Shown: in pieces, positions 10,693 to 51,681 of the stretch
Position numbering within the stretch: position 1 is the stretch's first letter
How the letters are laid out: every line of letters begins with the position of its first letter
Origin: Natrarchaeobius chitinivorans
GTDB lineage: Archaea; Halobacteriota; Halobacteria; Halobacteriales; Natrialbaceae
DNA length: 64,000 nucleotides
Direction of reading: 5' to 3'
NCBI RefSeq assembly: GCF_003841505.1
Contig: NZ_REGA01000014.1
Location: forward strand, 62,001 to 126,000
The notes under the pieces: generated by a model
Databases searched by the model: none
What the model was told of the DNA's origin: nothing
The model's input: the letters and a program-made list of their open reading frames with translations, nothing else
Translations under genes and position numbers: made by a program

Positions 10693-10789
10693 GCAACACA
10701 GTGGCCGTCTCGTAGGACTGCCACGAGTTTTGTCGGTGAAACCTCGAATCGCCCCCGTCATCACCGGCAAACCGGTACAACGATCCATC

Positions 10790-12457: not shown

Positions 12458-12660
12458 GTCCACTCGCTTTCGCTCAGATCCTGTGTCCGACTCTGCCACG
12501 TATTGTGCTCCGATGAGTGTCGTTCCCGAGTCGTTGAAAAGGGATCGACTCACGTCGCGGGTTGCCGCCACCGGGAGGGCCGTATCGACCGATGGGTCGC
12601 CGGCGACTCGAGGACGACGCCGGTACGTGACAACACGCCATCGTATTCGATCCGCGACGG

Positions 12661-12840
12661 CGTCGGCCGACGCGTGGTGGTTTGATCGGACGCGTAACGG
12701 GTTGGTCGGACGCGTAACGGTTTGGTCGGACGCGTAACGGGTTGACCGGACGCGTAACGGGTTGACCGGACGCATGGCGACTTGGCCGAACGCGTAGCTG
12801 TTTGGCCGAACGCGTAGCCGCTTGGCCGACGGCTCGAACC
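12661..12840. repeat. 20-bp tandem repeat array, about eight to nine units
   Basis: The unit is close to TTTGGTCGGACGCGTAACGG and repeats with exact 20-base phase from 12681 to 12840, with a weaker unit before it at 12661. Units drift steadily (CGGACGCGTAAC on the left, CCGAACGCGTAGC on the right) around a constant ACGCGT core. Because 20 is not a multiple of three, the array is not a coding repeat. It lies in the 12458-12991 gap between the MATE and topA starts, which are divergent. The rest of the gap has no gene. Confidence 0.9.
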
Positions 12841-39116: not shown

Positions 39117-39309
39117 ATACTGTCGGACAGAACTATTTGACGATCGGTCGCTCTCCTGCGGCCGTCTCCGACGGCGACGGCCGCGAATTCGTGATCGACG
39201 TCTCATACGGATTACTGTACCTGTGTACCGGCGCACCCGCCGCCTGAGTCGCGGGTGCACCGGCAATGACGTACAGTAAACCGTATCACTGACTTCTGTC
39301 CGACAGTAT
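39117..39309. mobile_element. Family A element, copy A2, interrupted by family B copy B4
   Basis: The outer ends ATACTGTCGGACAGAA at 39117 and TTCTGTCCGACAGTAT ending at 39309 are perfect 16-bp inverted repeats, flanked by TCA on both sides. The element is 193 bp long because an 82-bp B element occupies 39205-39286. Removing it leaves a normal A element in the same orientation as A1. The nreA start is 73 bases downstream. Confidence 0.85.
39205..39286. mobile_element. Family B element, copy B4, nested in A2
   Basis: An 82-bp copy from ATACGGATTACTGTA to TACAGTAAACCGTAT, the same length as B3 and B6. TCA on both sides of TACGG...CCGTA supports a 3-bp duplication of a target inside A2. It shows that B was mobile after A had inserted. 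Confidence 0.85.
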
Positions 39310-42399: not shown

Positions 42400-42480
42400 A
42401 TACGGATTGCTGTCACTGTCTACCGGAAACCACGGGACCGCGCCCGGTCTCCGGAAATGACTGCCAGCAGTTCGCCCCAT
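42400..42480. mobile_element. Decayed family B element, copy B5
   Basis: The left end ATACGGATTGCTGTC matches family B and is preceded by TCA. The right end (CAGCAGTTCGCCCCAT) is recognisable but degraded. It abuts or overlaps the start of family A copy A3 by two bases, giving a head-to-tail pair. Confidence 0.55.
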
Positions 42481-42588
42481 ACTGTCGGACAGCAGTCAGT
42501 AAGAAGTCGGTCGCGGATTCGCGGCCGTCACCTTCGGGGACGGCCGCAGTAGCGCGACCGATCTCCAAATAGATCTGTCCGACAGTAT
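42479..42588. mobile_element. Family A element, copy A3 (reverse orientation)
   Basis: A 110-bp copy between ATACTGTCGGACAG and CTGTCCGACAGTAT. Compared with A1 the interior is reverse-complemented and six bases longer. The adjoining TCA at 42588-42590 is the stop codon of the minus-strand DUF302 gene. Confidence 0.8.
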
Positions 42589-43052
42589 CAATCGGTCGTC
42601 TCGGTTTCGATCGACTCCAGCCGATCGAAGGCGTCCTCGGTGAGATCGCCGGTCGCGTCGAGAATGTCGGCCCAGGCGTCGTTGTCCGGTGCTATTCCCA
42701 GTAGTCGGGCGACTTTCATGATGGAGACGTGGTAGACGCGCTGGCGGCCCGGCTCTTCCTGCCAGACGATCACGTTACAGGGGAAAAAGCCGCCGATCCG
42801 CATCGTCTCCTCGAGCGCACGGTCGGCGATGTCGGGGTTACAGGCCCCGAGGACGTAGTACGGGTCGCGGTCGGCGTCGACCTTCTCGTTTAACAGCTCC
42901 GACGGCGAGAACTCGACCGGAATGCCGAAACCGACGTCCTCACAGACCGACCGGACGTGTTCGATCGCCTCCTCGTGGTCCATCTCGAGGACGGCCTGTT
43001 TCTCGCCGAAGTCGTCGGGATCGATCGTCGCAGGGTCGATCGGGAGACTCAT
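42588..43052 (-). CDS. DUF302-domain protein
   Basis: A 154-residue protein. The DUF302 core is visible as EEAIEHVRSVCEDVGFGIPV, YYVLGACNPDIADRALEE and GGFFPCNVIVWQEEPGRQRV, then VYHVSIMKVARLLGIAPDN. DUF302 binds heme or other small ligands in a few studied cases; the role here is unknown. The ATG at 43052 is chosen because a TATA box made by the end of element A4 lies 28 bases upstream. The longer frame reaching 43169 reads through that element and would give a false N-terminus. Confidence 0.82.
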   Translation of the reverse strand: MSLPIDPATIDPDDFGEKQAVLEMDHEEAIEHVRSVCEDVGFGIPVEFSPSELLNEKVDADRDPYYVLGACNPDIADRALEETMRIGGFFPCNVIVWQEEPGRQRVYHVSIMKVARLLGIAPDNDAWADILDATGDLTEDAFDRLESIETETTD

Positions 43053-43074: not shown

Positions 43075-43085
43075 TCCTTATACTG
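43075..43085 (-). promoter_or_regulatory. TATA box at the end of element A4, in front of the DUF302 gene
   Basis: On the minus strand CAGTATAAGGA straddles the terminus of A4 and is centred 28 bases before the ATG at 43052. The element supplies CAGTA and the target supplies TAAGGA, so the insertion appears to have built the promoter. Confidence 0.6.
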
Positions 43086-43189
43086 TCGGACAGAAGTCAG
43101 TGAGACGTCGGTCACGAATTCGCGGTCGTCGCCATCGAAGACGGCCGCAGGAGCGTGACCGATCTTCAAATAGTTCTGTCCGGCAGTAT
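43080..43189. mobile_element. Family A element, copy A4 (reverse orientation)
   Basis: A 110-bp copy with ends ATACTGTCGGACAGAA and TTCTGTCCGGCAGTAT (one mismatch). It is flanked by TTA on both sides of TACTG...CAGTA. This is the clearest case where the duplicated target is TTA rather than TCA, which shows that the 3-bp repeat is target sequence and not part of the element. Confidence 0.85.
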
Positions 43190-43268
43190 TACCCTGCTCC
43201 CTCGAGTGACGGCGACCACCGCTCGAGTACGGGTGTCCGGACGGAAGTCCCCATCCGCAGGCTCGCGT

Positions 43269-51544: not shown

Positions 51545-51557
51545 GATACTAATACTG
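51545..51557 (-). promoter_or_regulatory. TATA-like box at a solo family A end, in front of the 7TM kinase gene
   Basis: On the minus strand CAGTATTAGTATC is centred about 31 bases before the GTG at 51518. The ACTTCTGTCCGACAGTAT part, whose right boundary on the plus strand runs from 51552 to about 51574, is one family A terminus without a partner. Confidence 0.55.
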
Positions 51558-51681
51558 TCGGACAGAAGTCAGTGCCACGGACTCGTGAAAGTATTTTCCG
51601 GTAAAACTGTAGACGGGTCGTGCTCGCACGGTACTGATGGCCAACGGTTCGTATAATGCATCTCGCGCTCGAAGTCTCCGT

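Follow-up and report, generated by a model that had tools for sequence, protein, structure and literature searches.

Prokaryotic MITEs with promoter activity have been described, among them the Correia elements of Neisseria (reviewed in PMC10969869). Like family A, the haloarchaeal element family considered here, Correia elements are short, non-coding inverted-repeat elements that lie beside genes and contribute sequence to a neighbour's promoter. Correia promoters, however, are of the sigma-70 type, whereas family A contributes to an archaeal TATA box that spans the element junction, is half host sequence and predates the insertion; we claim no Correia membership for family A. The MITEs of Haloquadratum walsbyi, as described in the available portion of PMC3119063, resemble family A in being haloarchaeal, non-coding, mostly under 500 bp, bounded by inverted ends and often flanked by target duplications; no register with TATA boxes or stop codons is reported in that portion, and the likeness is one of description only. 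SMR-A of Haloquadratum also recalls family A in its length (∼110 bp), prominent inverted ends and tens of copies, but according to the same portion of PMC3119063 it makes no target duplication and prefers palindromes of IS605-type elements and PATEs; the TNA duplication of family A sets the two apart, and we rejected identity with SMR-A. In the available portions of the literature, nothing on MITEs that sit at TATA boxes or stop codons of haloarchaea lies closer than PMC3119063 and PMC10969869.

Among the protein-coding transcripts of Haloferax volcanii, 72% lack a leader and have TATA and BRE elements upstream, which places the TATA box at -28 from the ATG; CGAAA has been proposed as the haloarchaeal BRE upstream of the TATA box (PMC4983044). 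The window (the whole stretch of DNA analysed here, 64,000 nucleotides) carries on its minus strand a DUF302 gene (42588-43052) encoding 154 aa, with its ATG at 43052-43050 and a TGA stop codon at 42590-42588. Its product matches PF03625 at 66 bits, and orthologues with the same initial ATG support the start codon. Upstream lies A4 (43081-43188), a gene-free, near-palindromic MITE of 108 bp with the ends TACTGTCGGACAG / CTGTCCGGCAGTA, inverted as TACTG...CAGTA, and flanked by two copies of a TTA target duplication (43078-43080 and 43189-43191). The left copy, TAA on the gene strand, gives the TAA of a putative TATA box at 43076-43085 on the minus strand, CAGTA|TAAGG, in which CAGTA belongs to A4 and TAAGG is ancestral.

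An earlier note had joined CAGTA to the flanking TAAGG in a sequence centred 28 bases before the ATG at 43052, and had considered this the right place for a haloarchaeal TATA box. Direct reading bears out the first point exactly (43076-43085 is CCTTATACTG on the plus strand and, from 43085 to 43076, CAGTATAAGG on the minus strand; the centre of the 10-mer is 28.5 bases from the ATG). The second point holds as well: the T of TAA, at 43080, is 28 bases from the A of the ATG, inside the interval of ∼26-30 bp before the start codon that is expected of a TATA box, and boxes in control promoters peak at the same distance. On the BRE side the junction reads CCGACAG, a middling fit to a local promoter matrix built from ∼500 promoters of these genomes. 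The junction as a whole scores 4.76 bits, at the 57th percentile of promoters and the 96th of background. TBP would be expected to use the junction, and transcription of the DUF302 gene presumably starts at the ATG.

Family A is a MITE by form. A BLAST-type search of 41 genomes with a 110-bp A4 query gave matches in 17, including the host, and recovered at least 40 full or near-full copies from the host genome; the family is present in other Natrialbaceae besides the host (the relatives G002 and G003 fall in the host's genus as grouped in our analysis). Its members are short (size classes of 108, 107, 102 and 78 bp), carry no transposase gene, and end in terminal inverted repeats (TACTGTCGGACAG / CTGTCCGACAGTA); they are multicopy and dispersed, at sites that are empty in relatives (A4 and the amidohydrolase copy discussed below). 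A4 itself is a long imperfect palindrome, with a single-stranded DNA fold z of -5.5. Identical TNA triplets flank 49 of 81 copies, as against 0-4 identical triplets at shifted offsets. TCA and TGA predominate among these 49 intact duplications, in which TTA and TAA occur seven times each. In a larger set, 152 of 216 full elements have a 3-bp TNA duplication. An Rfam search of the 64-kb window returned no family.

Insertion sequences of the IS5 type (IS1031 and ISL2 groups) make 3-bp TNA duplications and would give the duplication of family A, but none of the DDE_Tnp_1 loci inspected in the host and three relatives, which were scanned for terminal inverted repeats and TNA duplications, is bordered by family A ends. 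Since no transposase with such ends was found at these loci, the TNA target rule is defined by the duplications alone. A second MITE family of 80 bp (TACGGATTACTGT...ACAGTAAACCGTA) is inserted at 39206-39285, within the A copy at 39118-39308, with a TCA duplication, and so follows the same TNA rule as family A; related copies lie near 10789, 18847 and 53656. The window also holds a truncated A copy at 51553-51575, with the left end only (TACTGTCGGACAGAAGTCAGTG) and no right end nearby, and, at 12657-12836, an array of ∼nine 20-base direct repeats (ACGGGTTGGTCGGACGCGTA-like). Elsewhere, a related class of ∼66-78 bp with TACTATCGGACGTAA-like ends and the same TNA duplication occurs in three genomes (L340-L369 in G019, G041 and G070), and near-identical copies of it in G019 suggest recent activity; one further genome (G015, L182-L201) holds ∼20 near-identical A copies, a recent burst.

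The DUF302 box can be compared with its counterparts in relatives that lack A4, which have a box at the same distance, in the form CTAAGG, TTAAGG or TATAAGG: CAGACTAAGG in Natrarchaeobius chitinivorans (L035, 2.0 bits), CCTATAAGG in Natrialba swarupiae (L040, 5.6 bits), GGTTAAGG (L037, 3.3 bits), CAGGTTAAG (L065, 6.3 bits) and CAGACTAAG (L097, 2.9 bits). Other DUF302 orthologues show CTAAG, TTAAG, TATAAG or TTTT-type boxes in the same place, and the boxes of relatives overall score from 2.0 to 8.8 bits. Over the 28 bases from box to ATG, 21 positions match N. chitinivorans, TAAGG included. Because a box stands at the same place in relatives without A4, TAAGG is ancestral, and A4 replaced the upstream half only. 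This divides the proposal in the earlier note that A4 supplies a TATA box to the gene: the upstream half does come from the element end, but the gene is not otherwise boxless, and the check named there as able to overturn the proposal, an equally good box in relatives without A4, came out largely against it (2.0-6.3 bits vs 4.8). The companion idea of a mobile promoter half fared similarly, in that the element end is one half of an older box, and recurrently so in the family, but no promoter was brought to a gene lacking one. Transcription of the DUF302 gene from some other promoter, for example in one unit with the SDR gene that lies upstream on the same strand, would leave the junction a chance resemblance; we regard this as very improbable, since orthologues from many genera retain a box at that distance and the same element register recurs at many unrelated genes.

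Joining A4's own flanks restores an empty site, GGGTAAGG, that is weak (-0.85 bits). The insertion could have improved the DUF302 box relative to this rebuilt site, and the far flank of A4 may have decayed since insertion; when the old upstream half was sought in that flank by comparison with relatives, similarity to most of them was not significant. These scores bear on the mobile promoter half in its full form, in which the element end carries the upstream half of a BRE/TATA promoter, creates or strengthens promoters and is kept for doing so, with ends that may outlast the decayed remainder. In its favour, the A4 junction far outscores its rebuilt empty site, and 12 of 20 junctions score above theirs; against it, the box was already at the site in element-less relatives, and over the 20 TATA insertions the median gain is small (3.2 filled vs 2.8 rebuilt-empty). 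Boxes are preserved rather than created by insertion.

The DUF302 gene carries both types of insertion found in the family: A4 on its TATA box and, on its stop codon, A3, a second 108-bp copy (42480-42587) that follows directly after it. The target duplication of A3 is the stop codon itself (42588-42590; TCA on the plus strand, TGA on the minus strand), and the other duplication copy, at 42477-42479, reads CCA, with one change. Because of this coincidence we computed the stop-codon statistic family-wide. Of 402 ends, 56 have as their duplicated TNA the exact stop codon of a coding gene running into the element (TGA 41, TAA 15, TAG 0), as against 0-3 ends at each other stop-to-end distance from 1 to 59; BLAST-found copies alone give 25 exact stop-codon ends vs 15 over distances 1-59 together. 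TNA density is ∼0.7 at stop codons vs 0.03 downstream, and the excess is significant over TNA density (4e-10) and over a target model (1e-5). By these criteria, stop codons account for 11 and TATA boxes for 4 of the 38 scored copies of the host genome. The stop-codon count is independent of the ATG-requiring pattern by which many elements were collected, and the stop-codon pattern is the stronger half of the evidence relative to the TATA pattern. It also weighs against retention for promoter function: stop-codon insertions are the commoner of the two, and a promoter benefit cannot explain them.

The -28 register of A4 is likewise no coincidence. Around the 81 copies found regardless of genes, 54 gene starts are predicted within 200 bp, 7 of them at 27-30 bp, and a one-ended pattern run on 125 Natrialbaceae genomes gives an ATG peak at 28-29 bp; ∼1/5 of the motifs it retrieves are without a detectable far end and are excluded from the full-element statistics. 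For the 216 distinct full elements (413 ends), the distance from an end to a coding ATG is 27-30 bp in 20 cases, as against 18 cases over 28 neighbouring positions (15-26 and 31-46), a several-fold excess; many of these elements were collected via a pattern needing an ATG 14-44 bp away, which inflates starts in that range but cannot alone make the 27-30 peak. All statistics were computed on retrieved loci, with predicted start codons and a heuristic coding filter (ORF length, acidity, codon-position GC), and therefore include some false starts and stops; a small number of ends count in both the TATA and stop classes, and a small number of orthologous insertions are left in the counts. At one locus of G003 (L134, C26 near 131121-131340), an A element lies between divergent genes, one of which starts 29 bp from an end; the ATG of the other lies 30 bp from a GACAGTATAAGG box of its own.

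In 503 control promoters, TNA frequency is 0.15 at position 28 vs ∼0.04 around it, and hits on TATA boxes are therefore to be expected of an element that targets TNA. The number of insertions seen there still exceeds what follows from TNA density (p=2e-4) and from a symmetrised, fitted target model (p=5e-6); over TAA/TTA density alone the excess is not significant (p=0.08). The last comparison overstates the expectation, because TAA and TTA make up only 14 of the 49 intact duplications. Target preference of the transposase for TNA, AT-rich or TBP-melted DNA, with survival playing no part, would draw on the same densities (a 3-4-fold TNA enrichment at -28 over its surroundings, and a higher one at stop codons) and on the non-significant TAA/TTA comparison; both classes nevertheless exceed what TNA density and the fitted target model predict, and we hold preference alone to be possible but somewhat unlikely. 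The excess over target-site density would instead reflect selection against insertions at neighbouring positions.

We consider it probable that family A MITEs target TNA, that an insertion regenerates the signal hit, be it a TATA box or a stop codon, and that such insertions are tolerated for that reason. The non-autonomous element inserts at a TNA and duplicates the triplet. A TNA often occurs in the TATA boxes that haloarchaeal leaderless genes have at about -28, and it occurs in the stop codons TGA and TAA; this shared three-letter target would explain the recurrent landings on both. With an insertion at a stop codon, the gene would retain TGA or TAA through the duplication. With an insertion at a TATA box, it would retain the 3' half and gain ...CCGACAGTA, giving GTATNA from the duplication and the terminal GTA of the element. 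At the DUF302 gene, A4 split an older box, leaving TAAGG as the old half, adding CAGTA as the new one and shifting the former upstream sequence 111 bp away. In each case the signal would be rebuilt on the gene side, and the insertion would therefore be tolerated.

Boxes older than the insertion are found at other genes. In this genome an element sits on the box of an amidohydrolase gene (PF01979); the same place reads TATAAGG or CTAAGG in ∼30 relatives, at least nine of which have GACAGTATAAGG, identical to what the element junction makes. At an M24-peptidase-like gene (PF00557), the corresponding sequence is ATTCAAG or TTTCAAG in most relatives and GTCCGACAGTATCAAG or TATGAAG in five genomes; GTCCGACAGTAT at -28 of this gene is common to five related genomes (L490-L494 in G085, G087, G100, G103 and G086), only two of which retain a longer stretch of the element end. 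Solitary ends at -28, with no detectable far end, occur at four further loci (L304, L299, L301 and L291), where 11-13 of 13 inner bases are kept, with a chance probability of 0.002 or less each. To judge from such sequences, element ends may sometimes outlive the element as promoters.

The solitary ends, the shared GTCCGACAGTAT of the five related genomes and the excess at the TATA position beyond target density all speak for promoter halves being kept for their function. Solitary ends are also found away from promoters, however, and promoter-side ends proved no better conserved than distal ends (mean of 1.25 mismatches on each side), and that reading appears to us decidedly unlikely. A related view, that the family supplies exchangeable promoter halves in archaea, with insertions at TATA boxes replacing the BRE side and all upstream control by the element's end, some swaps kept by selection and ends outliving the element as ordinary-looking promoters, we find doubtful, if a little less so.

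Regeneration of the signal by a TNA-targeting MITE would offer a testable rule for where mobile elements can insert harmlessly: short signals that contain the target triplet and are rebuilt by its duplication. The same rule would explain insertions at both TATA boxes and stop codons, and it predicts the sites of other TNA-type elements. For genome annotation, a solitary GTCCGACAGTATNA motif at -28 may be what is left of an element. For haloarchaea, family A provides some two dozen natural promoters in which a single step replaced the upstream half, so that the contribution of the BRE side and of upstream control would become measurable.
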